Shown: positions 15,795-50,050 of the stretch, one piece after another | Layout: each line of letters starts with the position of its first letter | Numbering within the stretch: position 1 is the first letter of the stretch | NCBI RefSeq assembly: GCF_026870155.1 | Contig: NZ_CP113975.1 | Coordinates: forward strand, 2,108,001 to 2,172,000 | DNA: 64,000 bases | Origin: Flavobacterium marginilacus | GTDB lineage: Bacteria > Bacteroidota > Bacteroidia > Flavobacteriales > Flavobacteriaceae | Direction: 5' to 3' | Translations under genes and position numbers: made by a program | Notes under the pieces: generated by a model | The model's database searches: none | Told to the model about the DNA's origin: nothing | The model's input: the letters and a program-made list of their open reading frames with translations, nothing else

Positions 15795-15848
15795 AACGCA
15801 ACTTTGTTGCGTTTATTAAAATACAAGTATATTTGCAACATAATTGCA
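15795..15848. promoter_or_regulatory. Paired Zur-box promoter of the first zinc operon
   Basis: Two palindromes flank a Bacteroidota-type promoter. Box 1 (15795-15813) is AACGCAAC-TTT-GTTGCGTT, a perfect 8-bp-arm repeat. Box 2 (15834-15848) is TGCAA-CATAA-TTGCA. The -33 TTG (15807) lies in box 1 and, after 18 nt, the -7 element TATATTTG (15828-15835) runs into box 2. Repressor bound at either site would block RNA polymerase. The same layout recurs at 49994-50050. Confidence 0.75.
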
Positions 15849-15868
15849 TTAAACAAATATACACGAAA

Positions 15869-16237
15869 ATGAAGAAACAATCAATAGTAGTTTTAGATAT
15901 TTTAGGAATTTCGAGTGCGGGTTTATGTCTAATTCACTGCTTGGTTTTTCCAATTTTAAGCATTATTCCATTTGGATTTTCAGACACGCATTGGATAGAT
16001 ATTTTTTTTGCCTGCATTGGAATGTTTGTGGTTTCGAAAATAGTGATGAGCAAAACTTCTAAAAAAGTCAAACTCATTCTTGCCTCGTCCATAATCATAA
16101 TAATAATTGGGGTTGTTTTAGAAATCATTTGGAAAATCAACACACAAATGATTCTAATTGGCGGTATCGGAATGATATTCGGACATCTTTTGAATTATAA
16201 ATCACATTCAAAATCACGGTTTAATGGAGCAAACTAA
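15869..16237 (+). CDS. MerC-domain inner membrane protein, likely zinc-related
   Basis: A 122-residue protein with four hydrophobic segments. The first helix has SSAGLCLIHCLVFPILSIIPFG, with the Cys and His-Cys pair of MerC proteins, and the end reads GHLLNYKSHSK. I start it at the ATG that follows the paired boxes (MKKQSIVVLDILG) rather than 12 codons earlier, because the earlier start would overlap box 2. Annotation pipelines would name it mercury transport, but no MerR, MerA or MerP is nearby. It is first in a Zur-type operon and its paralogue at 50062 is first in another, so zinc uptake is more likely; that is inference. Confidence 0.75.
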   Translation: MKKQSIVVLDILGISSAGLCLIHCLVFPILSIIPFGFSDTHWIDIFFACIGMFVVSKIVMSKTSKKVKLILASSIIIIIIGVVLEIIWKINTQMILIGGIGMIFGHLLNYKSHSKSRFNGAN

Positions 16238-17177
16238 AAAAATAAAGGTGTATATCCTAACCGGATTTTTAGGCTCGGGCAAAACAACGGTATTGAATAA
16301 TTTATTATCTCAATTTGTTACCGAAAAAAACGTAGTTATAGAAAACGAATTTGGCAAAATAAACATTGATGCCACGCTTGTAAACGGAACATTCGATTCT
16401 GTTTATGAACTTACCAATGGCTGTATTTGCTGTTCCATAAACAACCAATTGCTTGAGGTTTTAACCCGCATTCACACATTAAAAAACCAACCCGACAATT
16501 TGTTTATAGAAACCACCGGTATTACCGATGCTGGAGAGATTGCAGCCAATTTTGTCTCGTTTTTTGTGGCAGAAGCTTTTGATTTGAAGAAAATTATAAC
16601 CCTAGTCGATGCAGAGAACATCCTTTTTTATAAAGACAATAATCCCGAAGTGCAAAAACAAATTGTTGCTGCCGATGTTGTTGTCATCAATAAATCAGAA
16701 CGGGTTGCAACCGAAGTTTTAACTCAAATAAAAGAATTTATATCCTCTATAAATCCGTATTCTAGTATTGTTTTATCTAATGATGGCTCGTTAGACCGAA
16801 CGATTTTAGCAACTGAAAATAGCCAAAAAGCAGTTGCACCAAATACTCTTTACAAGTCTGAAAGTGTGCATAAAATAAAAACCATACTCTATGAAACGGA
16901 TGATTTTTTTGATGTGCTGAAACTAAAATACGAGCTTTTTAAAAATATGTATCTCTATTACCATCAGATTTATAGAATAAAAGGCTATGTGCTAACGCCT
17001 GACAATGAAGTGGCCTTGGTACAAACTACAGGCAAATCGGTAGTGATTGAATTATCAAAAAACCAAACCATTTCAAAAAGTCAATTGGTTTTTATTGGAA
17101 AAGAACTGGAATTAAAAACCATCGAACGCCTACTCAAAAGTGCTATTGTTAAAAATAAAAAACTTCAATTGCTATAA
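16224..17177 (+). CDS. COG0523 (CobW/ZNG1-type) GTPase, putative zinc metallochaperone
   Basis: A 317-residue P-loop GTPase with GFLGSGKTT (residues 14-22), the family metal motif GCICC (Cys67, Cys69, Cys70), and NKSE as the G4 site. The C-terminal CobW domain is short. Members of COG0523 under Zur control supply zinc to client enzymes when zinc is scarce (established for several bacteria and for ZNG1). The start overlaps the MerC stop by 14 bp, so the two are co-translated. Possible clients are encoded downstream: FolE, QueD and the carbonic anhydrase, all with zinc ligands. Confidence 0.88.
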   Translation: MEQTKKIKVYILTGFLGSGKTTVLNNLLSQFVTEKNVVIENEFGKINIDATLVNGTFDSVYELTNGCICCSINNQLLEVLTRIHTLKNQPDNLFIETTGITDAGEIAANFVSFFVAEAFDLKKIITLVDAENILFYKDNNPEVQKQIVAADVVVINKSERVATEVLTQIKEFISSINPYSSIVLSNDGSLDRTILATENSQKAVAPNTLYKSESVHKIKTILYETDDFFDVLKLKYELFKNMYLYYHQIYRIKGYVLTPDNEVALVQTTGKSVVIELSKNQTISKSQLVFIGKELELKTIERLLKSAIVKNKKLQLL

Positions 17178-17179
17178 AA

Positions 17180-17707
17180 ATGGAAAAGATAAAAATTGGA
17201 ATCCTTACCGTTTCTGACCGAGCCAGTCAAGGAATTTATGAGGATTTGTCTGGACAAGAAATTAGAAAAGTAATTGACCAATACACCAACAATAGGTGTG
17301 ATTTTGTCTATTTGATAATTCCTGATGAAGAAGCATTAATTCTCGAAAAATTAATCAATTTATCGGATGTTGAACATTGTAGCCTGATTTTTACCACGGG
17401 TGGAACAGGCCCAGCATTTCGAGATGTAACACCCGAAGCTACCGAAAAAGCCTGCCAAAAAATGCTCCCCGGTTTTGGAGAATTAATGCGAACAGAAAGT
17501 CTAAAACAAGTTCCCACCGCCATATTATCCAGACAAACAGCTGGAATCAGGAATCAAACCTTAATCGTGAATCTTCCCGGAAAGCCCAGTGCCATTGAAC
17601 CTTGCTTGAAAGCCATTTTTCCAGCCATACCCTATTGTGTCGATTTGCTCGAAGGCCCATTTATGATTTGCAACCCAGAAACTATTCAAATTTTTAGACC
17701 TAAATAG
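17180..17707 (+). CDS. mog: Molybdopterin adenylyltransferase, MogA-like
   Basis: The 175-residue protein is a full-length MogA/MoaB domain: IGILTVSDRASQGIYEDLSG at the N-terminus, then FTTGGTGPAFRDVTPEAT and the NLPGKPSAIEPCL loop. MogA adenylylates molybdopterin before molybdate insertion. No other molybdenum-cofactor gene is in the window, so its presence in a zinc operon is odd. It starts 2 bp after the COG0523 stop, so it belongs to the same transcript. It may be a second copy used when zinc is low, or may have another pterin substrate; both are guesses. Confidence 0.85.
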   Translation: MEKIKIGILTVSDRASQGIYEDLSGQEIRKVIDQYTNNRCDFVYLIIPDEEALILEKLINLSDVEHCSLIFTTGGTGPAFRDVTPEATEKACQKMLPGFGELMRTESLKQVPTAILSRQTAGIRNQTLIVNLPGKPSAIEPCLKAIFPAIPYCVDLLEGPFMICNPETIQIFRPK

Positions 17708-17817
17708 ATAGGAAGGATAAAAAATTGAAATTCATTGCCTATTCTTTTAATTAAACTATCTCGGAAGGATTCACAATGGTAGTGGTGAATCAAAACAAAA
17801 ATTATAGGAGTTAATAC

Positions 17818-17868
17818 ATGCAAAAATATTTGAAATCTGTGGCAAAAAAAATTAAAAAAAAACTTTGA
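17818..17868 (+). other. Possible 16-residue cationic micro-ORF in the operon spacer
   Basis: In the 214-bp gap between mogA and dcd an ATG preceded by AGGAG opens a short frame, MQKYLKSVAKKIKKKL, ending in TGA. The peptide is amphipathic and lysine rich. It could be a leader peptide, a small membrane-active peptide or chance in A-rich DNA. Only the ribosome-binding-site spacing (7 bp) argues for translation. Confidence 0.2.
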
Positions 17869-17921
17869 TGAGTTAAATCTATTGACAATTGAAAATTATA
17901 ATCTATAAAAACCCATTCTAA

Positions 17922-18443
17922 ATGATTTTAAGCGGAAAAGAAATAGAAAAAAAACTCGGAACAGATATTTCGATTGAACCATTCGATGCCAAACAGCTCA
18001 ATCCCAATAGTTATAATTTGAGATTGCACGATGAATTATTGGTCTATGACAATACAATTTTGGATATGAAAACGGAGCATAAAACAGCGATGATTCGCAT
18101 TCCAAAGTCGGGCTTGTTGCTAGAACCCAATAAACTGTATCTGGGCAGAACCGTAGAATATACCAAAACCCAAAATTATGTGCCAATGCTAGAAGGCCGA
18201 AGCAGTATTGGCCGTTTAGGAATGTTTATTCACGTTACGGCAGGCTTTGGCGATGTGGGTTTTGAGGGCTATTGGACACTGGAAATCTTTGTCATTCAAC
18301 CCTTGATTATTTACCCCAATATTGATGTTTGCCAAATTTATTACCACGCTATCGAAGGCGAATTTGAAACCTACACTAGCGGAAAATATCAAAAAAACAA
18401 TAGCATTCAGCCGAGTTATTTATTTAAAGATTTTGAAAAATGA
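17922..18443 (+). CDS. dcd: dCTP deaminase
   Basis: A 173-residue protein of the trimeric dUTPase/dCTP-deaminase fold. QLNPNSYNLRLHDEL, EGRSSIGRLGMFIHVTAGFGD and YWTLE with the catalytic Glu121 are the family landmarks. It turns dCTP into dUTP without zinc. That matters here because dCMP deaminase, the usual alternative route to dUMP, is a zinc enzyme, so this gene would give a zinc-free route in a Zur-controlled operon (inference). Its stop overlaps the next start. A 214-bp gap separates it from mogA, so an internal promoter is possible. Confidence 0.88.
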   Translation: MILSGKEIEKKLGTDISIEPFDAKQLNPNSYNLRLHDELLVYDNTILDMKTEHKTAMIRIPKSGLLLEPNKLYLGRTVEYTKTQNYVPMLEGRSSIGRLGMFIHVTAGFGDVGFEGYWTLEIFVIQPLIIYPNIDVCQIYYHAIEGEFETYTSGKYQKNNSIQPSYLFKDFEK

Positions 18444-19090
18444 AAAATGAAAAGAAAGCCGACACACTTGGTGACAATCACATTGGCACCTCGGTAGAAA
18501 CACCTTTGCGTAGCGACGCTTTTGATAAAACAGACGACCAAAAAATAGAAGCCATATCCTTTCATTATCAAAAAATAATGGAAGAATTAGGCTTGGATTT
18601 AACCGATGACAGCTTGAGCGGTACGCCTTATAGAGTGGCAAAAATGTATGTTAAAGAACTTTTTTCGGGATTAGACCCCAAAAACAAACCCAAAATTTCG
18701 GTTTTTGATAACAAATATGAGTACAACAAAATGCTCATTGAGAGTGATATTACTTTCAACTCTTCGTGCGAGCATCATTTTTTGCCTATGATTGGCAAGG
18801 CTCACATTGGGTATATTTCTTCGGGCAAAGTGATTGGGTTGTCAAAAATGAATCGGATTGTGCAATATTTTGGGCGAAGACCCCAAGTGCAAGAACGATT
18901 GACGATGCAAATTTTTAACGAACTGAAAACGGCTCTCCAAACCGATGATGTGATTGTGGTGGTCGAAGCCGAGCATTTGTGTGTTTCTACTCGTGGCGTA
19001 AACGATAAATCTAGCAAAACTACAACTATTGAATACGGCGGACAATTTGCCGATACCCAAATTCGAAATGATTTTTTTAAAATGATTTAA
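18440..19090 (+). CDS. folE: GTP cyclohydrolase I
   Basis: A 216-residue FolE with a ~35-residue hydrophilic N-terminal tail. The zinc ligands are intact: Cys110 and His113 in SSCEHHFLP and Cys181 in EHLCVSTRG. GLSKMNRIVQYFGRRPQVQERL is the conserved substrate region. It makes dihydroneopterin triphosphate for folate and for the QueD pathway. It is a canonical zinc type, not the FolE2 (type IB) that many bacteria switch to in low zinc, so it may depend on the COG0523 chaperone. It overlaps dcd by 4 bp. A second chromosomal folE is expected but not visible here. Confidence 0.93.
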   Translation: MKNEKKADTLGDNHIGTSVETPLRSDAFDKTDDQKIEAISFHYQKIMEELGLDLTDDSLSGTPYRVAKMYVKELFSGLDPKNKPKISVFDNKYEYNKMLIESDITFNSSCEHHFLPMIGKAHIGYISSGKVIGLSKMNRIVQYFGRRPQVQERLTMQIFNELKTALQTDDVIVVVEAEHLCVSTRGVNDKSSKTTTIEYGGQFADTQIRNDFFKMI

Positions 19091-19516
19091 ATGACACAAG
19101 AAGCCATAGCAATTCTTAAAGAAAACGAACTTAAAATTACCCAAAACAGATTGGATGTTTTGGCTATTTTTCTTGGTTCTGAAAAGGCTTTTAGCTTATT
19201 AGATTTAGAAAAAATATTGGATGAAAAACACGATCGCTCCAGCATTTTCAGGAGTTTGCAAACTTATACTGAAAAAGGAATTTTAGAAAAATTTTGCAAC
19301 GCATCCGGCACATCCATTTATGTTTTCAACCATCATAAACCCGATTGCAATGGCAAATCACATTTTAAATGCAAGGATTGTGATAACGTAGTTTCGCTGC
19401 CCAATTTGCCCATAGAATACCTTCAATTATTGGGTAAAAACAAAATGGAAACGATGAATTTATTAATTGAAGGTACTTGCGAAAATTGTCAGAATAAAAA
19501 CCCAAATACATTATGA
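19091..19516 (+). CDS. Second Fur-family transcriptional regulator
   Basis: A 141-residue Fur-family protein with a winged helix (DRSSIFRSLQTYTEKGILEKF) and two CxxC pairs (KCKDC and TCENC). It lacks the long His-rich loop of the Zur at 15389. It starts directly after the folE stop and its last codons overlap the next start by 4 bp, so it is a cistron within the zinc operon. It may sense zinc or another metal and give feedback on the same genes. Which metal it senses is not shown by sequence. Confidence 0.85.
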   Translation: MTQEAIAILKENELKITQNRLDVLAIFLGSEKAFSLLDLEKILDEKHDRSSIFRSLQTYTEKGILEKFCNASGTSIYVFNHHKPDCNGKSHFKCKDCDNVVSLPNLPIEYLQLLGKNKMETMNLLIEGTCENCQNKNPNTL

Positions 19517-20268
19517 ATCAATTTGTATTAACCGAATATCCCAATGCCGAAACCGGCGAAATTGTTACGAATAAATACTTGGCTTTTTTAGAAAAAGAAT
19601 ACCAATCCGACCTCTCAAAAATGCTCTTTGCCACTTCGCTATGTTCCGATGATGTGAATGTTTCAACCGATTTTAGAAAAGTTTTGGCACGCCCTTTCAC
19701 GATGGGTGGCTTGGGCGGTTTGCCGTATTCCGGACTTACCGGAATGGTCGCCTTTGCACACCACATTCCCGATGGTGGCGATGCATTTATTTTTTATGGT
19801 CCACATATTGGCATTTCGGATACTGGAGTACTTGGAGAAATGAGACGACCAGGACAACGCAAACTAACCAATAGTTGTGGTGCATTAATGCTTGGATTAG
19901 AACGATTACAACAACAAAATGAAGTTTATTTACCCATAAATTCGGAAATAGATTACCAACAAGCATTACTGGAACGAACCGTTATGTTCTATAAACAAAG
20001 AATTCTAGAGGCACAGAATCCCAAAAAAGAAATCACAGAAGTTTTCTACGAAGAAATTCATAGAAAAATACAATTGCTAGTCAAAATATCTAAAAAAGAG
20101 TTTTCGTGTAAACGTATTTTTTTATTGGGAGGCATCATCATTAACACTTCACCAGAATTTAATGATATGGTAGATGTTCGAAATTTTCAGGTTGTAAATA
20201 CGAATGAATTAGAAGATGAACCTTTTGATATTTCTATTTTGGAAACACCCGCTTTTAAAGATTTATAA
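19513..20268 (+). CDS. LCIB/LCIC-type (theta-like) beta carbonic anhydrase homologue
   Basis: The 251-residue protein resembles the LCIB family known from algal CO2-concentrating mechanisms, as far as I recall those sequences. The shared blocks are LCSDDVN (Cys44), RPFTMGGLGGLPYSGLTG, AFAHHIPDGG (His83/84), YGPHIGIS, RPGQ and SCGAL (Cys122); Cys-His-Cys would be the zinc site. The C-terminal ~100 residues are less conserved. It would interconvert CO2 and bicarbonate in the cytoplasm. Its place in a Zur-type operon suggests a back-up for the housekeeping carbonic anhydrase. No signal peptide is present. The family call is good; activity is unproven. Confidence 0.72.
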   Translation: MNQFVLTEYPNAETGEIVTNKYLAFLEKEYQSDLSKMLFATSLCSDDVNVSTDFRKVLARPFTMGGLGGLPYSGLTGMVAFAHHIPDGGDAFIFYGPHIGISDTGVLGEMRRPGQRKLTNSCGALMLGLERLQQQNEVYLPINSEIDYQQALLERTVMFYKQRILEAQNPKKEITEVFYEEIHRKIQLLVKISKKEFSCKRIFLLGGIIINTSPEFNDMVDVRNFQVVNTNELEDEPFDISILETPAFKDL

Positions 20269-20285
20269 TAAAATAAAAAATAGTT

Positions 20286-20765
20286 ATGCAAAAAATAGCC
20301 TATCTAAATGCCGAAGAAATTCAACTACTGAAACAGTTTAATTCTAAAAATAAAATCGTTTCGGTTTTCTATTATTATTGGATAAACACATCAAATCCTG
20401 ACGAACATTATAGTTTTATAGATGTGATTGAATTTGTTTTTGATGACAATTCTTCTTTAGTTTTTAAACTTAATGAGGATGATTCTGGAATTGCAATTAC
20501 CAGCAAATTTGAATTTGAGAAATATAAAACCAGTTTGCAAACCGAATTTCTACGACAAATAAGGCTTCAAAAAGTGGAAGCTAGCACATTTGAAATTTGG
20601 AAATCTATATTGACTGATACCTTTCAGGAAATAACAGCCATTAGTGAAAAAGGTCAATTATTGAGTTCGACTTTCTGGATTGCCTTCAAAAACCAAAAAA
20701 TAGAACTCCATTTTCATCCCGTAGAAGGATTGGTTGTGAGCGAATACGATGAAATTTTAGAATAA
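20286..20765 (+). CDS. Protein of unknown function in the zinc operon
   Basis: A 159-residue soluble protein, acidic, with strand-rich sequence (VSVFYYYWINTSNPDEHYSF, then FVFDDNSSLVFKLNEDDSG). There is one HFHP motif near the C-terminus and no cysteine. I do not recognise the family. It starts 17 bp after the carbonic-anhydrase gene and 19 bp precede queD, so it is surely co-transcribed. It could be a partner of either neighbour. Confidence 0.7.
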   Translation: MQKIAYLNAEEIQLLKQFNSKNKIVSVFYYYWINTSNPDEHYSFIDVIEFVFDDNSSLVFKLNEDDSGIAITSKFEFEKYKTSLQTEFLRQIRLQKVEASTFEIWKSILTDTFQEITAISEKGQLLSSTFWIAFKNQKIELHFHPVEGLVVSEYDEILE

Positions 20766-20784
20766 AACCTAACAAAAACAAGCA

Positions 20785-21192
20785 ATGAAAACCACAATCT
20801 GCAGAGAAGCCCATTTTAATGCTTGCCACAGAATGCACAACCCCAATTGGTCTGACCAAAAAAATAAGGAAGTATTTGGGATATGCAACAACGCCAATTA
20901 TCACGGACATAATTTTATACTTATTGTAAAAATCACTGGCGAAATCAATCCAGAAACTGGTTATGTAATGGATATGAAAGTTCTCGGAACGATTATAAAA
21001 GAGCAAATAGAAACTCGTTTTGACCATAAAAACCTCAACCTCGATTGTCCCGAATTTAAAGACAAAATAGCTTCTACCGAAAATTTTGCTTGGGTCATTT
21101 TTCGGATTTTAAAGCCATTGCTTCCACAGGAAAACAAACTAGCCATTACACTTTATGAAACGGATAAGAATTATGTAGAGGTTGGGGAGTAA
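20785..21192 (+). CDS. queD: 6-pyruvoyl-tetrahydropterin synthase / 6-carboxytetrahydropterin synthase (QueD family)
   Basis: A 135-residue protein with the zinc ligands His15 (FNACHRMH), His40 and His42 (NYHGHNF), and the catalytic Cys34 in FGICNNAN. The CNNxNxHGH spacing is the PTPS-like form. It acts on dihydroneopterin triphosphate, the FolE product, giving carboxytetrahydropterin for queuosine or a related pterin. Together with FolE in the same operon it forms two successive steps. No QueC, QueE or QueF is seen here. Confidence 0.88.
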   Translation: MKTTICREAHFNACHRMHNPNWSDQKNKEVFGICNNANYHGHNFILIVKITGEINPETGYVMDMKVLGTIIKEQIETRFDHKNLNLDCPEFKDKIASTENFAWVIFRILKPLLPQENKLAITLYETDKNYVEVGE

Positions 21193-21234
21193 CAGAAATA
21201 CGATTTTCATTTGACCAATAAGCTTTCCTTTAGC

Positions 21235-21687
21235 CTATCCGTAGAGATTTTTTATCTCCGCCATAACAAAAGTACTTTGGGTACTCCCTATGCTTTCAAC
21301 TGATCCCAATTTATTAAACACAAAATCCTGATAATGCTTCATGTCTTTGACAGAAACTTTCATTAAAAAATCGTAATCGCCTGATATATTGTAACATTCC
21401 ACAATTTCTTCTATTTTCATAATATCACTAACAAACTGATTTCCAATAGTACGATCGTGCTGTTTAAGTTTGATATTACAGAAAACAATGAATCCCCTGT
21501 TTAATTTTTCTGCATCAAGCAGTGCTATATATTTCTTAATATAACCATTGTTTTCCAATCTTTTAATTCGCTCAAAAACTGGCGATGCCGAAAGATTTAC
21601 CATCTTTGCTAGTTCTTTTACCGTGAATTTAGAATTATCGTGAAGTATATTTAGTAATTGAAGATCAATATTGTCTATCTGCTCCAT
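21235..21687 (-). CDS. Lrp/AsnC-family transcriptional regulator
   Basis: A 150-residue protein with an N-terminal HTH (NLSASPVFERIKRLENNGYIKKYI) and a C-terminal RAM/AsnC ligand domain (GDYDFLMKVSVKDMKHYQDF). It is convergent with the end of the zinc operon and divergent from the SBF transporter 161 bp away. It could control that transporter in response to an amino acid; that is from position only. Confidence 0.88.
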   Translation of the reverse strand: MEQIDNIDLQLLNILHDNSKFTVKELAKMVNLSASPVFERIKRLENNGYIKKYIALLDAEKLNRGFIVFCNIKLKQHDRTIGNQFVSDIMKIEEIVECYNISGDYDFLMKVSVKDMKHYQDFVFNKLGSVESIGSTQSTFVMAEIKNLYG

Positions 21688-21848
21688 AGAATATTTTACT
21701 TAAAAAAGGTTGAATTAATTTATAAAAAAGAATAATAATCTTCAAATATACTGAAAAACAACACAAAAACCTTATTTTAATAAATTAGAAGATTTAGCAA
21801 CCTGTAAAACTTATTTTTGCAGTACAAAAATCTAAAAAAAATAGCACA

Positions 21849-22841
21849 TTGAAGAAGTTATTAGAAGTTTTAAGTAAAGTAGGTTTGGACGGTTTCCTGT
21901 TAATGATAGGCACTATGATTCTGCTGGCCTATTTTTTGCCGATGCCAGGCTTGATAAAAGAACCTGTTTCGCTGGAGGATATTGCCAATGTAGGCGTGTC
22001 GTTTATTTTCTTGTTTTATGGCTTGCGACTGAGTGTTGAGAAACTAAAATCCGGGCTTGCCAACTGGAAAATGCACATTGTCGTTCAGTTGACAACCTTT
22101 TTGTTTTTTCCGCTCATTGTTTTGGCATTTCGTCCCTTGTTCATCAACGCTGGCTTTGAGTTGCTTTGGTTGGGTGTTTTTTTTCTGGCAGCTTTACCAT
22201 CCACAGTTTCCTCTTCTGTTGTTATGGTTTCTATCGCCAAGGGCAACATTCCTGCGGCTATTTTTAATGCGAGCATTTCAAGTTTGATTGGAGTTGTGGT
22301 TACGCCACTTTGGGTTGGGCTTTTCATAGCATCTGCAACAGGTCATTTTGATGTTACTGATGTTTTTTTTAAATTGATTTTTCAAGTCTTGTTGCCTGTA
22401 ATTGTAGGCATCTGTCTTAATTCTCGTTTTGGTGCCATTGCCGAAAAATACAAGAAACAGCTCAAATATTTTGACCAAGGAGTTATTCTTACCATTATTT
22501 ACACGTCTTTTTGTAAGTCATTTTCTGAACATCTTTTTGAAGGCTTCACCACACTTGAACTTGCTGGGCTTGCCACAGCAATGATGGTCTTGTTTTTTGC
22601 CGTATTTTTTTGCGTAGGACTACTGAGTCGATTGCTTGGTTTTTCAGATGAAGACCGCATTACGGTGTTATTTTGCGGATCCAAAAAGTCATTGGTACAC
22701 GGAACGGTCATGTCAAAAGTACTCTTTCAGCACAGTACCATCACCGGCATCATATTATTGCCACTTATGCTTTACCATGCCTTGCAATTAATTGCCGCCA
22801 GCATCATCGCTCAGCGTATGGCTCGACGAAAAGAAGTATAA
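21849..22841 (+). CDS. Bile acid:sodium symporter-family (SBF-like) membrane transporter
   Basis: A 330-residue protein with about ten hydrophobic helices. LGVFFLAALPSTVSSSVVMVSIAKGNIPAAIF and the later GSKKSLVHGTVMSK are typical of the SBF-like family (PF13593), related to YfeH. Members move organic anions with sodium; the substrate here is unknown. The frame opens with TTG after TAGCACA; the first ATG is at residue 19 and would cut into the first helix, so TTG is the better choice. The start is less certain than the family. Confidence 0.82.
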   Translation: MKKLLEVLSKVGLDGFLLMIGTMILLAYFLPMPGLIKEPVSLEDIANVGVSFIFLFYGLRLSVEKLKSGLANWKMHIVVQLTTFLFFPLIVLAFRPLFINAGFELLWLGVFFLAALPSTVSSSVVMVSIAKGNIPAAIFNASISSLIGVVVTPLWVGLFIASATGHFDVTDVFFKLIFQVLLPVIVGICLNSRFGAIAEKYKKQLKYFDQGVILTIIYTSFCKSFSEHLFEGFTTLELAGLATAMMVLFFAVFFCVGLLSRLLGFSDEDRITVLFCGSKKSLVHGTVMSKVLFQHSTITGIILLPLMLYHALQLIAASIIAQRMARRKEV

Positions 22842-22909
22842 TTTAGTTATGCTGTTTCTTTTCAGAGCTTAATTCTAAAAAGGACAGCCTTTTGTGAGTT
22901 ACTGGTGAG

Positions 22910-31272: not shown

Positions 31273-31273
31273 A

Positions 31274-35125: not shown

Positions 35126-37510
35126 CTAAAATCTCACCGCAGTTTGCAGTCTAAAATTAATAGGAGAACCTGGTGCAAAAATAAATTCATCTGCATCTGG
35201 ATTGTAATAACCGGAACTTACATATTTTTTGTTGGTTAAGTTATATAGATTGAATCCGATATTCCATTTTTTGTAGGTGTAAGAAACGGATGCGTCAAAA
35301 ATAGTATAGGTTGGTAGGTATTTGTTACCAAATTCGTCTCCCCATCCTGTATAGACGGCACTTCTTTTTCCCATATATTGCGAACCAAATCCAAATCCTA
35401 AACCATTAAAAACGCCTTCATTGATTTTGTATTTTATAAAACTATTAAAAGTTTGGTCAGGTGTTCCTCTATTTTCAATACCAATTAGATTGGGATTACT
35501 ATCTTTTGTAACTCTAGCATTTGTAAAAGAATAATTGGCATTAATAGATAGATTTTGAGTAATCTGTCCAACAATGTCAAACTCTACTCCTGTACTAGTT
35601 ACTTGTCCTGTTTGTAAATAGAAAGAATCGTGAATTGGATCAGAAATACCCACATCATTTTTCTTGATATTATAAAAAGAAGCGTTTAAAACGAGTTGCT
35701 TGTTTAGGAATAATCCTTTGATACCAAATTCGGTGTTGCTACCTGTTAGCGGTTTGAGTCGTCCTGCACCATAAACAGCACCACGTTGGGGCAGAAAACT
35801 TTCGTCATAAAGTCCGAAAAAAGATATTTTATCTGATAGCAAATATGTCAATCCAAATCTTGGTGTAAACTTGTTGGTTGCAATTTCATATTCGGGGTCT
35901 TCGGCTGTATTGTAGTCCTGTCCGGTAATCAATTTTGTATAGCGTCCTGCAAGGGTAATAATAAATTTTTCGGCTATTTTTAAGTGGTCTTGCACGTAGA
36001 TTGCTTGCCATTTGTTGGTGGACATCCAACTGCCAACATTATCTGCAGGGATGTATCTTAAACTATCTTTTGATACATAATACGTCGGATTATTGATAGA
36101 TAATTGCAATCTTTTTGCGTTACTGTAATCGCCTCCGTAGGTACTCCCTTCGGAACCACTTCCATAATCCAATCCAATTAGGACTTTGTGTTCCAATTTT
36201 TTCCCAGTATTGAATTTACCGTCCAAAAAGAGTTGCGTATTGAAGAGTTTTCCAAACCAGTCACTCTTTGAAACCGTTCTATAAATGGTGTCTTTGGTTG
36301 GGGAAAGGCTATTTACATACAAACTCATTCCGTCCCAATCGGTAGTCATATAGGCGGTTTGGGCATTCAGTTTCCAATTTTCGTTGATTTTATGTTGCAA
36401 ATGGGCTCTATTATACACGTCAGCTCCCAAGTAATTACCAACGTTGGGATCATTCATTGCCATATCTATTGGTAAGGCGAAGAATTTTTTATTGATGGTT
36501 ATTTGCTCAAAATTATTATGAGCCGTAACTGCCTTTACATAATTATGTTCAACAGTTAAACAGGTATTTTCATCAAATTCATATTTCAAAACAGGAGCAA
36601 TAAAAAAACGATTAAAATTTCCTAATTTATAAAACTGTGCACTTTGCTGGTATCCTGTATTAAAACGATAGGTTAGTTTTCCGTTTTTGGATAATTCTCC
36701 CCCTAAATCTAATGAAGCTCGCATCATATTAAAACTTCCAAGACCAAAGCTAACTTCGTTAATGCGAGTGTGAGTAGGTTGTTTGGTAACAGTATTAACT
36801 AAACCCCCTGGTTCAGAATTGGCAAGCATAAATCCAGCAGGCCCTTTTACAAACTCAATTCGTTCAATCATTGACGCATCTTCTTGGGCATTCCACCAAA
36901 TTGGCCCTCCAACACCGTTGCGATACGTACCATAAGTTGCATCTGTTCCTCTAATCAAAAGACTGGAATCTAAATCATTTCCGTAGGTTTTGGTAATACC
37001 ACTCACAGAGCGTATCATATCGTTTTTATTCAAAGCTCCATAATCCAGAATGGTTTGTCTTGTGGTAACCATAATATTTTGCGGAATCTCGATAAGCTCT
37101 GCATTAAGTCGCAGGGAAGAAGATACTTTTTCGGCTACATACTTTTTGTTACTTGTAATAACAACTTCGTTCAGTTGCTGTTCTGAAGACTTGAGTTGAA
37201 TGTTTAGGGTTACTGTATTTCCCTGTTCTATTGTTACCGTGCGTTTTTGAGATTCTTGTCCAACAAGTGTGGCAGTAAGCTGGTATGTACCATTGGCAAG
37301 GTTGCTTATTTCAAATTCGCCATTGCTGTCTGTAACAGTGTTTTTCTTGGTTTCTTTAATTTTTATACTAACGGGCGTTGCTGGTGTGCCTTCAGATGTT
37401 GTAATTGTGCCTTTTATAGTTCCCGTTTTTTGTTGGGCAGAAGCTATAATCCCAAAGAATGCGATTGTTACAAGTAATAAATATTTTGGTATTATTAATT
37501 TTGATTTCAT
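35126..37510 (-). CDS. TonB-dependent siderophore receptor
   Basis: A 794-residue outer-membrane receptor with signal peptide (ending ASAQQ), carboxypeptidase-like domain (~28-112), plug with IPQNIMVTTRQTILDYGA and ERIEFVKGPAGFMLANSEPGG, and a barrel ending in LQTAVRF. The plug start LNEVVITSN is the usual link from the regulatory domain. Its start is only 7 bp after the stop of the receptor at 37518, so the two receptors are translated from one transcript. Its ligand is probably a ferric siderophore; which one cannot be said. Confidence 0.9.
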   Translation of the reverse strand: MKSKLIIPKYLLLVTIAFFGIIASAQQKTGTIKGTITTSEGTPATPVSIKIKETKKNTVTDSNGEFEISNLANGTYQLTATLVGQESQKRTVTIEQGNTVTLNIQLKSSEQQLNEVVITSNKKYVAEKVSSSLRLNAELIEIPQNIMVTTRQTILDYGALNKNDMIRSVSGITKTYGNDLDSSLLIRGTDATYGTYRNGVGGPIWWNAQEDASMIERIEFVKGPAGFMLANSEPGGLVNTVTKQPTHTRINEVSFGLGSFNMMRASLDLGGELSKNGKLTYRFNTGYQQSAQFYKLGNFNRFFIAPVLKYEFDENTCLTVEHNYVKAVTAHNNFEQITINKKFFALPIDMAMNDPNVGNYLGADVYNRAHLQHKINENWKLNAQTAYMTTDWDGMSLYVNSLSPTKDTIYRTVSKSDWFGKLFNTQLFLDGKFNTGKKLEHKVLIGLDYGSGSEGSTYGGDYSNAKRLQLSINNPTYYVSKDSLRYIPADNVGSWMSTNKWQAIYVQDHLKIAEKFIITLAGRYTKLITGQDYNTAEDPEYEIATNKFTPRFGLTYLLSDKISFFGLYDESFLPQRGAVYGAGRLKPLTGSNTEFGIKGLFLNKQLVLNASFYNIKKNDVGISDPIHDSFYLQTGQVTSTGVEFDIVGQITQNLSINANYSFTNARVTKDSNPNLIGIENRGTPDQTFNSFIKYKINEGVFNGLGFGFGSQYMGKRSAVYTGWGDEFGNKYLPTYTIFDASVSYTYKKWNIGFNLYNLTNKKYVSSGYYNPDADEFIFAPGSPINFRLQTAVRF

Positions 37511-42746: not shown

Positions 42747-42770
42747 AAAATAACTCAACTAATTTAAAAC

Positions 42771-45167: not shown

Positions 45168-45170
45168 TAC

Positions 45171-45190
45171 TATTCTTATTTAGATTTATT
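45171..45190. promoter_or_regulatory. Candidate Fur-type site in the receptor leader
   Basis: TATTCTTATTTAGATTTATT begins 4 bp before the receptor start codon. Its first 14 bases equal the reverse complement of the site at 39911-39927 upstream of another receptor operon. The right half is imperfect. Confidence 0.4.
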
Positions 45191-45278
45191 AAAAATTATT
45201 AATTTTACGCAAAAGTATTTGTATTTTAAATGGAACTACTAACGCAATCAGTATTAAAATAAACGCAAAACGGATTAT

Positions 45279-46274
45279 ATGCAGACACAGATGAGAAGCG
45301 AGATATTTAAGAAGAAATTGGTTGTGATAAAGAATCCTATTCAGTTTAATAAAGAAGATCTTGTTGAAAAAAAAATAGACTTCAATCATAAAGGTATTAC
45401 AGGAGTTATCACTGATATTATGTTAAACGGAATTCATTTGGTAAGTCGGGATTTGACTATGAGAGATGATTCGTATTCGATTGAAATAGAGCACAGCTTT
45501 TCGTTTGTAAAACTGCATTTTGAAATAGAAGGTGATAATGAATATATTCCTGAAAATCCATTAGGCAGAGGGATTTATATTCCAGAAGGGCATTATAATT
45601 TGTTTTATATTCCTAATATAAAAGGGGTTTTGAATTACCGGACCAAAAGAAGAAAGACACTCGAAATCACCTTTACCGAAGCCTATTTAGAACAATTGTT
45701 TTATCCCAATTTGAAAACTACAATCCCTTTATTGGCAAGCGCTATTACCAATAATACGGCTTATACTATGTGGGAAACCAGCAAAAGCATTTCGCCAAAA
45801 CTGCATATTCTGATCGAAGATATAATTCAATGCAATTATACGGGAGCTATCAAAAAAGCATTTTTAGAATCAAAAGTGGTTGAGGTACTATCGCATTTGT
45901 TTACCATTATCAATGAAGAAGAAAATACCAAAATCAATGAAGATTTAAGCGAAAGCGATTATCTTAAAATTGTAGCAGTAGAACATATTCTAAAAACGCA
46001 ATTCAAAGAAAAACATACACTGGCGAGCATTGCATCACAAGTAGGCTTGAATGATTTTAAACTAAAAAAACAGTTCAAAATAGTTTATAATACAACCGTT
46101 TTTCATTATTTGACGGAACTTCGTATGGAATATGCTAAGCAATTAATCTTAGAAAAGGATATTTCTATTTGCAGTGTTTCGGAAGAATTGGGGTATAAAA
46201 ATCCACAGCATTTTACAGTAGCTTTCAAAAAAAAGTTTGGATATTTACCTAGTAAGCTAAAAAAGATAGTGTAA
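45279..46274 (+). CDS. AraC-family regulator, PchR-like
   Basis: A 331-residue protein with an N-terminal sensory region and a C-terminal AraC HTH pair (TLASIASQVGLNDFKLKKQF then VSEELGYKNPQHFTVAFKKKFG). AraC proteins of this size beside receptor genes often respond to the siderophore itself, as PchR does. It is divergent from the receptor at 45167, its probable target. Two possible starts exist, residues 1 and 5. Confidence 0.87.
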   Translation: MQTQMRSEIFKKKLVVIKNPIQFNKEDLVEKKIDFNHKGITGVITDIMLNGIHLVSRDLTMRDDSYSIEIEHSFSFVKLHFEIEGDNEYIPENPLGRGIYIPEGHYNLFYIPNIKGVLNYRTKRRKTLEITFTEAYLEQLFYPNLKTTIPLLASAITNNTAYTMWETSKSISPKLHILIEDIIQCNYTGAIKKAFLESKVVEVLSHLFTIINEEENTKINEDLSESDYLKIVAVEHILKTQFKEKHTLASIASQVGLNDFKLKKQFKIVYNTTVFHYLTELRMEYAKQLILEKDISICSVSEELGYKNPQHFTVAFKKKFGYLPSKLKKIV

Positions 46275-46460
46275 TCAATTCAAAAAAAAGATCTTAAACT
46301 CATCCAATTCAGTATGTGATTGAGAATAATCTAAAAACCACCTGCGTAATTTTTGAATTTCAGATGGCGCTAATATATGGATTGCTTTTTGCAATTCTCT
46401 TGAAAAAAGTTCAGGTTCAAAGCTAACTTTCTCTAATATTAATATGGTGTAGTCTAACAT
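46275..46460 (-). CDS. Small conserved protein of unknown function
   Basis: A 61-residue protein, LDYTILILEKVSFEPELF followed by ELQKAIHILAPSEIQKLRRW. The pattern is one I recall as a small conserved protein of Bacteroidota, so I judge it real despite its size. It is convergent with the AraC gene and directly abuts its stop codon. No function is known. Confidence 0.6.
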   Translation of the reverse strand: MLDYTILILEKVSFEPELFSRELQKAIHILAPSEIQKLRRWFLDYSQSHTELDEFKIFFLN

Positions 46461-46597
46461 TATCTACGGAATTAGTTTACCAGACTGTCTTGAATCTAAA
46501 AAAACACTTTACAATAGAGCTGGATTATTTTTATTGATTACAAAAGAACTTCTTTGTGAATTGTATTTTTTTAAGCTATAAGTTTTACGAATAATGC

Positions 46598-48160
46598 TTA
46601 TTCTAATATTTGACTGTTCTGCTTTTTTATGTTTTTCCGTTTCAATACGGCATAAAGACTGATAGAAGCTAAAATAATCCAAAAAACATCTACAAAGAAT
46701 AATTGAAATTCATCATTATAGGTTGTCCAGAACCATTTTCCTGTAACGATTCCGTTTGAAACGGGAACTAAAAAACCTAGAATACTACCAGCTAGTAAAC
46801 TGTATTTAGTAGTGAAAGCATCGTTTCTTTTCACGATAAAAAACACAGTCAGCAAGAGCCATCCCACAAAATAAATGCTATAAATTCCGGATTGTCCCAG
46901 CGGATAAAATAGTTTGCAAACTATAAAAGTAAAAGCCGTTATGGGATACATACTCAAACAAATGGCCAAATAAATCAGAACCACCTTACGATTAAAGCGT
47001 CTTTTTTTCTCAGGTATATTTTTTTTGTCTCTGGCTACCAGCCAAATCATGACACCTGAAATAATTACAAAGCAAGTAACAATCCCCAAAACAAAACTGA
47101 TTATTTTTAAGGCATAACCGCCATAATCAGCAAAGTGAATGCGATATAAAACACTTTTTACGCCATCTAAATAGGTAGTTTGTGCATAAGGGTGTTTTTC
47201 TTTTATGATTTTTCCAGAAGCCACTTTATATACCAATTCTCCATTTCCAGTAAATTTCTGCTTTGGCGATAATTGGCCTCCAATGGTAAGGTGCATATTA
47301 GCATCACCATAATTTTCAATTTTGATTTCGGTTATATCAAAATCATTCCATTTGGTTTTGGCATCGGCTACTAATTCATTAATGTGATAAGGGGCTTTTA
47401 AGGAGGCTTTTTTATATTCATAAGGCAAAGTGCTATATTCTAAATCCTGATATAATTTATCCTGATTACCATCGTATAAAGCGATAACAACAGGTGCGAC
47501 TATTACTAGTTTAATCATAAAAAAAGCACCAGTAACTGCATATACAAATTGGAATGGCAAACCTAAAACACCTAGCGAAGTATGCGCATCGGTCCACATC
47601 GTTTTTAGTTTTTCTTTGGGTCTAAAAAGATAAAAGTTAGAAACTATTTTTTGCCAATGTAATAACACTCCGGTTACAATTGCAAAAAGGAAAAATAAAG
47701 CCACAAACCCCGAAAGATAGTAGCCAACAGGATAAGGAATTTGTGCCAAAAAATGAAGACGATACAAGAATTCTCCTAACGAATAAGAGTCATCATAAGT
47801 AGCTGTTTGGAACGTTTTGGTATCTAATATAAAGTACTGACTTTCTTTAGCTTCTTTGGCAGCTAAACTGTCTTTTGAGGCTTCCAAAGAAACTCTTAAT
47901 TTTCTTGAATTGGTCGAATTATATAAAGAAACTGTTCTAGCGTGTAAAGGATATTTTTTATTGATGGAATCTAATATTGTTTCCGTATTCAATACCATTT
48001 CTTTATTAATAATCACAGATTCGCTGCGCTCCCAATTATTGATTTCTTCTTTAAAAAAAGAGAAAGAACCCGCAAAAAAAATCACAAAAAGCACCACGCT
48101 TATCACAATACCACTAACAGTATGTGTGTGAAAATAGATATTATAGTTTCTGTTGTTCAT
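46598..48160 (-). CDS. Large PepSY-domain membrane protein of an iron-uptake operon
   Basis: A 520-residue protein with a first helix in IYFHTHTVSGIVISVVLFVIF and several more (YYLSGFVALFFLFAIVTGVLLHW, then TWTDAHTSLGVLG-type His region, then a four-helix tail). It belongs to the large PepSY_TM group found with DUF3649 and DUF3325 in ferric-siderophore operons. It is the last of a four-gene minus-strand set that begins at 49533. Confidence 0.85.
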   Translation of the reverse strand: MNNRNYNIYFHTHTVSGIVISVVLFVIFFAGSFSFFKEEINNWERSESVIINKEMVLNTETILDSINKKYPLHARTVSLYNSTNSRKLRVSLEASKDSLAAKEAKESQYFILDTKTFQTATYDDSYSLGEFLYRLHFLAQIPYPVGYYLSGFVALFFLFAIVTGVLLHWQKIVSNFYLFRPKEKLKTMWTDAHTSLGVLGLPFQFVYAVTGAFFMIKLVIVAPVVIALYDGNQDKLYQDLEYSTLPYEYKKASLKAPYHINELVADAKTKWNDFDITEIKIENYGDANMHLTIGGQLSPKQKFTGNGELVYKVASGKIIKEKHPYAQTTYLDGVKSVLYRIHFADYGGYALKIISFVLGIVTCFVIISGVMIWLVARDKKNIPEKKRRFNRKVVLIYLAICLSMYPITAFTFIVCKLFYPLGQSGIYSIYFVGWLLLTVFFIVKRNDAFTTKYSLLAGSILGFLVPVSNGIVTGKWFWTTYNDEFQLFFVDVFWIILASISLYAVLKRKNIKKQNSQILE

Positions 48161-48162
48161 CG

Positions 48163-48465
48163 TTATTTAGCTATAGGATTATAGGTTTGACCTAGGTAAA
48201 GAATCAAAGCAAAAATGAAGGTTATTAATAGATAAATGCCCCAAATTTTCCAGCCGTTTTTTGCCAAAAAAGCAACAATCATAAGACCTACCCAAAGGAT
48301 AAAACCACTAAAGCTCATTGTCATAATAACAGCTGCTTTGTCAAGCCAAGAAGCTAGAGCCAAATGAAAACTGACAGAAACTAGGTAGCCGCCGATTATG
48401 GCAGCAGTAATTTTTAGAAAACGCTGTCCTTTAGAAAGCGTTAAATATTTAGGATTTGCCGGCAT
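48163..48465 (-). CDS. DUF3649-like small membrane protein
   Basis: A 100-residue protein with three helices (ITAAIIGGYLVSVSFHLALAS, TMSFSGFILWVGLMIVAFLA and WGIYLLITFIFALILYL). Size, helix pattern and position between a DUF3325-like gene and a large PepSY gene fit DUF3649, an iron-uptake accessory family. It is 2 bp from both neighbours. The assignment rests mostly on context. Confidence 0.65.
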   Translation of the reverse strand: MPANPKYLTLSKGQRFLKITAAIIGGYLVSVSFHLALASWLDKAAVIMTMSFSGFILWVGLMIVAFLAKNGWKIWGIYLLITFIFALILYLGQTYNPIAK

Positions 48466-48467
48466 GT

Positions 48468-48800
48468 CTAAGAGTAATAAATTTCTAGTATTGCAATTAA
48501 TGAAAGTAGAAGGATTAATATTTCAAATTTTATTATTTTCAATGGCTTTAAAATAACTATTAAACTGCCAATAGTCATTAATGCTATAAAAAAGAATAAT
48601 GTTCCAGAACCTAAACCAAAAGTGGCTATCCACAAAATATAAGCAACTAAAAGTAACGTTATCCCAATTATTTTGGTTGAAGCTGGATGGTTGCGCATCC
48701 ATTTTTCGAAGCTAAAAGTATAGGTTAATGAAGCTCGTTTTGAAGTGTAATACAACGTATAGAATGCCAAAAAGAGAACGCAAATCGCAATTGTAATCAT
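48468..48800 (-). CDS. DUF3325-like small membrane protein
   Basis: A 110-residue protein with a helix at the start, then TLYYTSKRASLTYTF, and three more helices (IGITLLLVAYILWIATFGLG, LFFFIALMTIGSLIVIL, FEILILLLSLIAILEIYY). It matches DUF3325 proteins by size and order in the operon. It probably acts with the DUF3649 and PepSY proteins in the inner membrane. The function is unproven. Confidence 0.65.
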   Translation of the reverse strand: MITIAICVLFLAFYTLYYTSKRASLTYTFSFEKWMRNHPASTKIIGITLLLVAYILWIATFGLGSGTLFFFIALMTIGSLIVILKPLKIIKFEILILLLSLIAILEIYYS

Positions 48801-48807
48801 CTTAAAA

Positions 48808-49533
48808 TTATTTTACAGTAATCAGATAAGTAGCCATTTTCCAAACTTCGTCATATTTTTTTCCGTTGTGTTCGCCAGCCGTTTTTTCGGTATAAGCAAA
48901 CTCTACCATATAATTTCCAGACCAAATAGGGGTAAAGGATATTTCCCCATTTTCTGAACTCCATAATTCTTTTTCCCAGCCATTTGGAGCAATCACTTTC
49001 ATTTTTTGCTGCTTGGCAATTTTACCTTCGTATAGAGTATTTATCATTATTTTAGTGTCTTTTTTTGCGGTTTTTACTTCTTTAGAAAACAAGCTGATGA
49101 TGTTCGGATTAATAGAAGCTTCATTTCCTTTTAAATCATTAGCAACAGTAACTGTAGCACTTGAATTATAATCTAGTTTCATTGTTCCGTAAACGTCTTT
49201 TACTGTGTGATGCATCGCCACCGTATAAACACCATCTTCATCTGGAGTAAAAAAAGCTTGGTATTTGTTTTCCAAAGCAGTAGCGGTTAATTTGATTTCT
49301 TTTTTTGAAGGCGTAATCAAAATCAACGAAAAATGGTTGATGTCCGAAAACCATTTGGCGGTTTTTTCAATATCCTTTTCAGAGAATTCTCCAAAATAAA
49401 TGTCAATTGCCTGAGGTTTTCCTTTAGTTCCAGTGGCTTTGGTTTCAATCCAAAGAGCGTGTGCGAATGAAGACGCACTAAACAAAAGTGTTAGTACCGC
49501 AAATGATAATTTTTTGAATGTGTTTGATTTCAT
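48808..49533 (-). CDS. DUF4198-family exported protein
   Basis: A 241-residue protein with signal peptide (ending SSFAHALWIE) and the DUF4198 pattern, an Ig-like beta fold (FFTPDEDGVYTVAMHHTV and FTPIWSGNYMVEFAYTEK) with conserved His residues. Such proteins are periplasmic and occur with metal-uptake genes, including nickel and iron systems. It is the first intact gene of the minus-strand operon. The remnant of a TonB receptor appears to precede it. Confidence 0.8.
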   Translation of the reverse strand: MKSNTFKKLSFAVLTLLFSASSFAHALWIETKATGTKGKPQAIDIYFGEFSEKDIEKTAKWFSDINHFSLILITPSKKEIKLTATALENKYQAFFTPDEDGVYTVAMHHTVKDVYGTMKLDYNSSATVTVANDLKGNEASINPNIISLFSKEVKTAKKDTKIMINTLYEGKIAKQQKMKVIAPNGWEKELWSSENGEISFTPIWSGNYMVEFAYTEKTAGEHNGKKYDEVWKMATYLITVK

Positions 49534-49562
49534 AATTTTAAATGGTTGATTTGTAATAAATT

Positions 49563-49790
49563 GTTTTAAATGGCAATTATTTCAAAAAAGTTAAACTCTC
49601 CACCTGAATAAGGCTTTTTATTCGATTTCCAAAAACAGATAATACTTAGGAAGTTCAATATTTTTTATAAAGCTTAATGTTTTTCTCTTTTATACTTGTA
49701 TTTGTTATTGACTTCAACTTCTTTTAATTTGCTAACAGTATCTTTTTAATTTTTTCCTGAAATTGTTGACGAAATGAAAATTATAATGGG
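49563..49790 (-). pseudogene. Possible TonB-dependent receptor remnant
   Basis: Minus-strand frames show DTVSKLKEVEVNNKYKYKRE, which resembles the junction before a TonB plug, and then in another frame KKPYSGGEFNFF, like the TKKPY...GG plug segment of the receptors here. They are separated by stops and most of the gene is gone. A receptor would normally head the DUF4198/DUF3325/DUF3649/PepSY operon, which supports the reading, but the matches are short. Confidence 0.35.
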
Positions 49791-49874
49791 CAGTTTAATT
49801 AGATTTCTCATCACTATTTAGATTAATTATGAATAATTTAATGCAAAAATAAAAACTAATTTCAGTTTAGCAAC

Positions 49875-49893
49875 TTTATTTAGAATAAATAAA
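49875..49893. promoter_or_regulatory. AT-rich palindrome, candidate Fur box
   Basis: TTTATTT-AGAAT-AAATAAA is a perfect 7-bp-arm palindrome between the divergent iron operon (DUF4198) and zinc operon. It is close in sequence to the sites at 39911 and 45171. It lies just upstream of the receptor remnant, where the lost gene's promoter would be. Confidence 0.45.
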
Positions 49894-49993
49894 AATAATA
49901 TTTTGATTTACATATTCACCCTAACAGATCTGCGGTGTGAAAAAAAAAATGTAAATAAATTAGGGGTTTCTTTTGTAAAAAGATTTCAAAATT

Positions 49994-50050
49994 AATGCAA
50001 TAATGTTGCGTTAATTAAAAATAAAACTATATTTGCAACATTGTTGCGTT
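49994..50050. promoter_or_regulatory. Paired Zur-box promoter of the second zinc operon
   Basis: Box 1 (49994-50012) is AATGCAA-TAATG-TTGCGTT, one mismatch from a perfect palindrome. Box 2 (50032-50050) is TTTGCAAC-ATT-GTTGCGTT, with TGCAACA-T-TGTTGCG at its core. The -33 TTG (50006) lies in box 1 and the -7 TATATTTG (50028-50035) runs into box 2, with 19 nt between. The order, spacing and overlap equal those at 15795-15848. Coding starts 11 bp after box 2. Confidence 0.78.

Follow-up and report, generated by a model that had tools for sequence, protein, structure and literature searches.

The window analysed here is a stretch of 64,000 nucleotides from Flavobacterium marginilacus (NCBI RefSeq assembly GCF_026870155.1, contig NZ_CP113975.1, positions 2,108,001 to 2,172,000 of the forward strand; coordinates below count from its first letter). 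Two gene sets within it, operon 1 (15869-21192) and operon 2 (50062-58653), each of which probably forms a single transcript judging by gene direction and gaps, are preceded by a pair of palindromes of the type GCAAC-N3-RTTGC that is merged with a promoter of the Bacteroidota type. We propose that these paired palindromes are the double operator of a Zur-like, zinc-sensing repressor of the FUR family, most likely the product of the gene at 15389-15778, and that they control a zinc-starvation regulon; from sequence comparison, we assign this a probability of roughly 0.85. The proposal is built on the sequence of the pairs, their rarity, their conservation, their linkage to a FUR-family gene with Zur-type residues and the content of the operons they precede. 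The elements in question are:

15389-15778, minus strand: FUR-family regulator of 129 residues, divergent from operon 1, the Zur-like candidate repressor (Pfam FUR match; alignment)
15798-15810, unstranded: candidate distal operator box of pair 1, GCAACTTTGTTGC, containing the -33 TTG at 15807-15809 and lying about 20 bp from the fur ATG
15828-15835, plus strand: -7 element of operon 1, TATATTTG, running into the proximal box; start predicted near 15840
15835-15847, unstranded: candidate proximal operator box of pair 1, GCAACATAATTGC, centred near +2
49997-50009, unstranded: candidate distal operator box of pair 2, GCAATAATGTTGC, containing the -33 TTG at 50006-50008
50028-50035, plus strand: -7 element of operon 2, TATATTTG; start predicted near 50040
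50035-50047, unstranded: candidate proximal operator box of pair 2, GCAACATTGTTGC

The two pairs share one geometry. Their box centres are 37 bp (pair 1) and 38 bp (pair 2) apart, as a first-pass annotation of the sequence had described and as we confirm to the base at both loci; the same holds for its placement of the -33 TTG in the first box and of TATATTTG running into the second, with 18 nucleotides between them in pair 1 and 19 in pair 2. The TTG belongs to the 3' half of the distal box, and the last base of TATATTTG is the first base of the proximal box. The -33 TTG is thus part of the distal GTTGC and the -7 TTTG part of the proximal TTTGCAAC, so that the same letters would serve as operator and as promoter, and the boxes are as far apart as the promoter elements. 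Two of the four boxes are perfect GCAAC-N3-GTTGC, and each of the others has a single half-site base changed, a point absent from the first-pass annotation. In the available portion of the source, sigma-A promoters of F. psychrophilum carry TAnnTTTG at -12 to -5 (PMC9723704); taking the -7 element as this motif would place the start sites near 15840 and 50040, with the proximal box centred at about +2 and the distal box at about -36. A sigma-70 scan was no better than shuffled sequence (30 versus 28.0).

The pairs are also rare. The perfect box GCAACN3GTTGC occurs at two places in the genome of 5,319,561 bases, both in the window (reversed control, one place), and the pair pattern with any gap of 14-44 nucleotides recovers the same two places only, with none in the reversed control; the genome scan proposed in the first-pass annotation, made here with mismatch patterns, gives no pair outside the two operons. 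Single relaxed boxes with up to two mismatches, in contrast, number 107 on the forward and 114 on the reverse strand, against 42 and 31 in the control. As single boxes are too common to serve as a search motif, we take the functional unit to be the pair fused to the promoter. Of the original suggestion of a Zur regulon with a genome-wide search motif, the Zur part is supported by relatives, gene content and FUR residues, and the search motif is refined to the pair. Four of five single places that were read outside the pairs lie inside frames (L005, L013, L023, L025), and window site 36104 falls inside the frame 35126-37510, with surroundings that match TonB queries. At G000:C1:655132 a single box, TGCGACATAGTTGCGTT, stands between frames upstream of a 126-residue lipoprotein-like frame; it is possibly a regulon member or a chance match.

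The candidate regulator matches the FUR domain PF01475 with 24.6 bits (cut-off 23.1), or 23.8 bits with neighbouring pieces in the genome scan. Its best match among solved structures is E. coli Zur (4mtd, E 4e-6), followed by entries titled "putative metal uptake regulation protein" and "probable zinc uptake regulation protein FurB". Aligned to E. coli Zur, whose site B consists of His77, Cys88, His96 and Glu111 (PMC4219657, in the part of the paper at hand), it retains equivalents of Arg65, His77, Cys88 and His96 and of the structural Cys103, Cys106, Cys143 and Cys146. With the exception of position 96, all of these are present in 23 of 23 Fur-like proteins, which come one each from 23 of the 34 non-genus stretches introduced below and were chosen by likeness to the window's protein; the third FUR protein of the genome was left out of the residue alignment.

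The arrangement is conserved in named relatives. With the two MerC proteins as queries, we retained the best 80 of 89 loci, from 78 genomes (73 of the 80 titles read Flavobacterium, and two genomes are present twice, as L042/L118 and L102/L113). A box, TA--TTT and a second box lie within 250 nucleotides upstream of MerC at 75 of these loci, with the centres 36 bp apart in 51, 37 in 22 and 38 in two. Among the five exceptions, L044 and L046 have the arrangement elsewhere in the locus, and in L086, L092 and L102 the proximal box is changed. Over both strands of the 1,575,080 bases examined the full arrangement occurs 79 times, against 0 in the reversed control, these being the 75 sites upstream of MerC, those in L044, L045 and L046, and the L056 site reread on the opposite strand. 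A divergent FUR relative lies within 400 nucleotides of MerC in 76 of the 80 loci and further off in L044 and L046; none was found at the locus in L047 and L102. The same succession of fur, pair and merC is seen in a strain of Flavobacterium johnsoniae (L085). The proximal box is mostly TTTGCAAC-N3-ATTGCATTAA and regularly asymmetric, with A instead of G at +2 in 73 of the 75 rows.

These alignments bear on whether the palindromes might be RNA hairpins, an attenuator or a terminator before the divergent fur gene, and not protein sites, a possibility raised by the distal box: the minus-strand distal palindrome with its T-run (15813-15795) scores terminator-like, with 10 such sites against 4.5 in shuffles. 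Pairing is indeed possible at distal +/-9 in 70 of the 75 rows, at proximal +/-7 in 74 and at proximal +/-11 in 73. However, these flanking positions are nearly invariant A/T without compensating change, and the stem is broken at distal +/-7 (15/75 paired), proximal +/-2 (1/75) and proximal +/-8 to 10 (2, 0 and 0 of 75), the GCAA/TTGC core being unable to vary in this test since the rows were selected for it. Moreover, the fixed spacing of 36-38 bp and the overlap with promoter elements require no RNA, and we regard hairpins as highly improbable.

A sample of 121 genomes of the genus links the pair to the regulator. The wide pair pattern (gap 14-44 nucleotides) finds 63 sites in 47 genomes, with the reversed control positive in four. 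TA--TTTG lies on the second box in 52 of these sites, distributed over 36 genomes and spaced 38 (20), 36 (20), 37 (11) or 40 bp (1); the 11 sites without it include a close variant adjoining a FUR relative (G076). FUR matches at E 0.001 occur in 53 genomes, and in 38 they reach at least 50% identity, the level that defines an orthologue here and that was put at the gap between E-values of 3.5e-33 and 1.1e-25. Promoter-type pair and FUR orthologue occur together in 35 genomes, the pair only in one, the orthologue only in three and neither in 82. From 20 stretches read for further pairs it emerged that some genomes have a second one. In one form it precedes a 116- or 115-residue protein, which is accompanied by DUF4625 lipoproteins and a TonB receptor; in another it precedes a small protein together with a TonB receptor and an AztD-like protein (76.7 bits, cut-off 400). 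Models for hemin receptors and, less strongly, for ZnuD are matched by these TonB receptors, in every case below cut-off. Such operons are seen at L152:5980-10533 and L165:6890-11783.

Beyond the genus, a stricter pattern (gap 20-28) was applied to 296 genomes each of the order and of the class, the latter at least 95% complete. The pair is found in 28 genomes and 10 of 90 genera of the order, 15 of these genomes belonging to the own genus, and in 24 genomes and 20 of 166 genera of the class, only three of them from the own genus; the control gave 0 in both samples. Among the non-genus sites, of which 34 of 37 were counted, 25 have the strict TA--TTT on the proximal box, and the spacing is 34 (1), 36 (1), 37 (6), 38 (18), 39 (5) or 40 bp (3), a range bounded by the pattern itself. 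At least one query (COG0523, AztD-like, FolE, ThrRS, LCIB, MerC, ABC/ABC-2, TonB, DUF4625, oxidoreductase or Fur-like) is matched in 32 of the 34 stretches, not always beside the pair, and a Fur-like gene lies within 3 kb in 21. Within 1.5 kb, a zinc-set match (ABC and TonB excluded) accompanies 27 of 34 pair loci against 0 of 27 weak single-box loci, a Fur-like gene 21 of 34 against 0 of 27, and any query 31 of 34 against 2 of 27, a contrast that serves as a guide and not as a rate because the 27 control loci all come from the own genome, some of them overlapping (L014/L033, L029/L030, L035/L036), and the neighbour queries were taken from genus pair loci.

This distribution argues against the suspicion that the likeness of the two promoters is accidental, with palindromes devoid of a regulatory role simply retained after duplication. 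MerC 1 and MerC 2 are paralogues (44% identical), and hence their promoters could have been copied together. Elsewhere, however, the pair precedes unrelated first genes, namely those for the 116-residue protein, an AztD-like protein, COG0523, ThrRS and ABC, and it recurs across the genera of both samples with no control match, which leaves this explanation hardly credible.

It also bears on which FUR protein would occupy the boxes. At E 0.001 or better the genome yields three FUR-family matches, and the second of them (19091-19516) is encoded inside operon 1, so that this protein or the third (G000:C1:4004576) might be the one that binds. The second protein retains the structural cysteines but has Glu and Asn at the positions of His77 and Cys88, and is therefore unlikely to sense zinc through such a site; among solved structures it is closest to a peroxide operon regulator. 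No CxxC is seen in the frame of the third. While the 15389 orthologue tracks the pair through the genus sample and adjoins it at most MerC loci, relatives of the 19091 protein were found at operon 1 only in L042, L044 and L160 with the filters used. Binding by either of these proteins in place of the 15389-15778 product is accordingly very unlikely.

The genes under the two pairs supply the physiological context. In each case a MerC gene stands first and a COG0523 gene follows within the operon, in agreement with the first-pass annotation and with PF03203 and PF02492 matches in both. Operon 1 comprises:

15869-16237, plus strand: MerC-like small membrane protein 1, 122 residues, with a CxxHC motif (PF03203, 45.6 bits, gathering cut-off 27.6; alignments)
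16224-17177, plus strand: COG0523/CobW-type GTPase a (PF02492, PF07683)
17180-17707, plus strand: MogA/molybdopterin adenylyltransferase-like protein (NF006932, 250 bits, cut-off 158)
17708-17921, plus strand: gap of 214 nucleotides, occupied by a threonyl-tRNA synthetase (ThrRS) gene in relatives L042 and L044
17922-18443, plus strand: dCTP deaminase-like protein, DCD (TIGR02274, 111 bits, cut-off 92.8)
18440-19090, plus strand: GTP cyclohydrolase I FolE (NF006824, 266 bits, cut-off 202)
19091-19516, plus strand: second FUR-family protein, lacking His77 and Cys88 equivalents (Pfam; residue alignment)
19513-20268, plus strand: LCIB-type carbonic anhydrase-like protein (PF18599, 177 bits)
20286-20765, plus strand: protein with no family match, also present in the L042, L044 and L160 operons
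20785-21192, plus strand: 6-pyruvoyl tetrahydropterin synthase (PTPS)/QueD-like protein (PF01242, 100.5 bits)

Operon 2 comprises:

50062-50424, plus strand: MerC-like protein 2, with a GTG start, the 44% identical paralogue of MerC 1 (PF03203, 37.2 bits, gathering cut-off 27.6)
50435-51247, plus strand: 5'-nucleotidase/acid phosphatase of the lipoprotein e(P4) family (TIGR01533, 255 bits, cut-off 216)
51258-51560, plus strand: small frame with a DUF4919 match below cut-off (PF16266, 23.3 bits against 29)
51463-52275, plus strand: ABC ATPase (PF00005), whose true start is probably further in, since the longest frame overlaps the preceding one
52298-54598, plus strand: TonB-dependent receptor of siderophore type (TIGR01783, 281 bits, cut-off 223.5)
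54610-56046 and 56048-57403, plus strand: two ABC-2/DUF3526 membrane proteins (PF12040, PF12679)
57415-58653, plus strand: COG0523-type GTPase b, called ZigA-like only, since its 565.7 bits over the whole model NF038288 fall under the curated cut-off of 600

By family annotation and sequence likeness the operator thus stands upstream of zinc-uptake and zinc-sparing genes. The accessible text of PMC2770081 names partners of COG0523 that are under Zur control in gamma- and betaproteobacteria, namely ThrRS, HisI, QueD, gamma carbonic anhydrase and FolE2, and it is this company of gene types that makes zinc the probable metal. ThrRS has no match anywhere in the window, and a comparison of 17690-17940 with relatives for remnants gave matches of at most 31 nucleotides, the best at gene borders; as these are short, we claim no ThrRS relic, and the gene seems, from the sequence, to have been lost from this locus or never to have been there. 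The ThrRS of L042 and L044 has 644 residues, and L044 additionally carries a HisI gene further on.

Flavobacterium psychroterrae (L044) presents the most extended version of the locus: at 1343-11186 the FUR gene and an intact pair head one long co-directional run, in the order oxidoreductase, COG0523 a, MogA, ThrRS, DCD, HisI, FolE, second FUR, LCIB, the protein with no family match, PTPS, MerC and e(P4) nucleotidase. Therefore, this organism unites the genes of operon 1 with the two that open operon 2. A decayed pair with TATATTTG remains before its MerC gene, which may for that reason have a promoter of its own. A Flavobacterium-like locus of fur, pair, MerC and COG0523 is also present in L043, filed as a metagenome-assembled genome of Klebsiella pneumoniae; given that likeness, it is probably a binning error.

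Besides the restrictions on the pair-versus-control contrast given above, several points weigh against a Zur-like double operator. The Fisher p for the co-occurrence of pair and FUR orthologue in the genus (9e-26) ignores shared ancestry, and the genus sample overlaps the named MerC loci, as is evident from contigs of equal length, so that the two sets of counts are not independent. The promoter-type pair is absent from 85 of the 121 genus genomes, and thus the system is not universal in the genus, while G085 has the pair, yet only a distant FUR match (36%) on another contig. Outside the genus no Fur-like gene lies within 3 kb in 13 of the 34 stretches, and two of them (L218, L223) match none of the queries. 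For four of the products, MogA, the e(P4) nucleotidase, dCTP deaminase and the TonB receptor of siderophore type, no clear link with zinc emerged from the material examined. In the regulator itself, position 96 varies among the 23 Fur-like proteins (Asp in 14, His in seven, Lys and Thr in one each), and the E. coli Zur ligand Glu111 is aligned to a gap in all. Finally, NCBIfam places the 15389-15778 protein no nearer to Zur than to PerR: PerR NF047406 gives 35.3 bits (cut-off 200) and Zur NF008646 35.0 (cut-off 167), both far under the equivalog cut-offs.

A rival reading is regulation by the same FUR protein in response to a different signal, be it peroxide, another metal or a toxic metal (Hg, Cd) handled by MerC. 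The name MerC derives from mercury resistance, and a pyridine nucleotide-disulphide oxidoreductase of about 300 residues directly follows MerC or the pair in several genomes (L085:10366-11271, L044:1896-2804); MerA belongs to that superfamily. The unfixed ligand position 96, the siderophore type of the operon 2 receptor and the failure of NCBIfam to split Zur from PerR point the same way. Against this, no further mer family was found among the window proteins scanned, the partners are of the zinc-starvation type (ThrRS, HisI, FolE, QueD-like, COG0523, and the AztD-like and ZigA-like proteins, these two below cut-offs), His77 and Cys88 equivalents are present in all 23 Fur-like proteins, and the best solved structure is that of E. 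coli Zur. A signal other than zinc is on this balance unlikely, though less so than any of the alternatives above.

Taking the Zur-like reading as a basis, the following mechanism can be envisaged, in which the binding to DNA, the identity of the metal, the repressing action, both start sites and what each gene does are all predictions. Each box would lend the promoter one of its TTG triplets: the -33 TTG would come from the distal one, while the proximal one would contribute the -7 TTTG along with the start site. In the presence of zinc, dimers seated on the two boxes would mask both elements of the promoter, shutting off both MerC-led operons and perhaps, by its position, the regulator's own gene; reading the reverse direction by eye gave no clear TAnnTTTG for a furA promoter. 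A dimer on either box would hinder the polymerase, and both together could provide tighter or graded control. As 36-38 bp correspond to about three and a half turns, the two dimers would sit on roughly opposite faces of the DNA, which favours a spacing dictated by the promoter over one fixed by dimers touching each other. When zinc is short, both operons would be on and would supply parts for import, namely the TonB receptor in the outer membrane and the MerC-like and ABC/DUF3526 proteins in the inner membrane, along with metallochaperones of the COG0523 type and additional or substitute enzymes (FolE, carbonic anhydrase, dCTP deaminase and the PTPS/QueD-like protein). The genome has no match to ZnuA and one ZIP-type gene, matched in two pieces, and the CxxHC motif is kept in MerC-like proteins (alignment of 82 sequences). 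We offer it purely as a proposal that the MerC-like proteins, which head both operons in this genome without a ZnuA match, carry zinc inward.

More tentatively, and at somewhat less than even odds, we suggest that zinc starvation throughout the class (Bacteroidia, judging by the named relatives) is governed by a single Zur lineage using a single operator grammar, with the palindrome written into both halves (-33 TTG and -7 TTTG) of the unusual promoter of these bacteria, and that in genomes without a ZnuA match the MerC-like and ABC/DUF3526 proteins replace the usual inner-membrane zinc importer. For Flavobacterium and allied bacteria, the response to zinc starvation would gain a defined operator together with a candidate regulator. 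The pair would also tie the poorly understood MerC-like, DUF4625, ABC-2/DUF3526, AztD-like and 116-residue proteins to zinc through a shared promoter, and would clearly exemplify how two operators can merge with the two elements of a promoter.

A precedent is found in the proteobacterial Zur regulons (Haas et al. 2009, PMC2770081), where, in the sections available, a FUR-family regulator, COG0523 GTPases and paralogues of zinc and folate enzymes likewise come under one operator. They differ in that FolE belongs here to PF01227 and the carbonic anhydrase is LCIB-type instead of gamma; MerC is not met there as a gene, and the terms Bacteroidetes and dCTP are absent from the same text. As far as the accessible parts of PMC4219657 and PMC6103462 go, E. 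coli Zur shares the FUR superfamily, the structural Cys4 site, His77/Cys88 and a pseudo-palindromic operator. It binds as one or two dimers on one box with the core TRWNAYRWTATAWYRTNWCA, whereas here two separate boxes of the form GCAAC-N3-RTTGC lie 36-40 bp apart and each contains one promoter element. The flavobacterial sigma-A promoters (PMC9723704) have the same TAnnTTTG at -12 to -5; here this element is shared with an operator half-site, and the available text mentions neither zinc nor Zur. PgFur of Porphyromonas gingivalis is another FUR-superfamily member from the Bacteroidota, which, in the portion of PMC6613475 at hand, lacks the histidine-rich regulatory motifs, whereas the 15389-15778 protein keeps such residues. 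No Zur operator or box for Flavobacteriia or other Bacteroidota was present among the literature matches listed, and the stems Bacteroid- and Flavobacter- are absent from the main text, so far as available, of the Zur review PMC6103462; in the accessible parts of PMC9976891 and of PMC11960050, whose subject is ZntR, Zur figures as background. Zur regulons are well known, and we claim no priority for this operator, as RegPrecise and subscription papers lay outside the scope of the literature search.

Adjoining the regulator on the other side, the window at 14711-15380 contains a 109-residue frame that looks like a truncated protein of the ORF6N type, and the sequence as far as 15380 resembles what is left of another gene.

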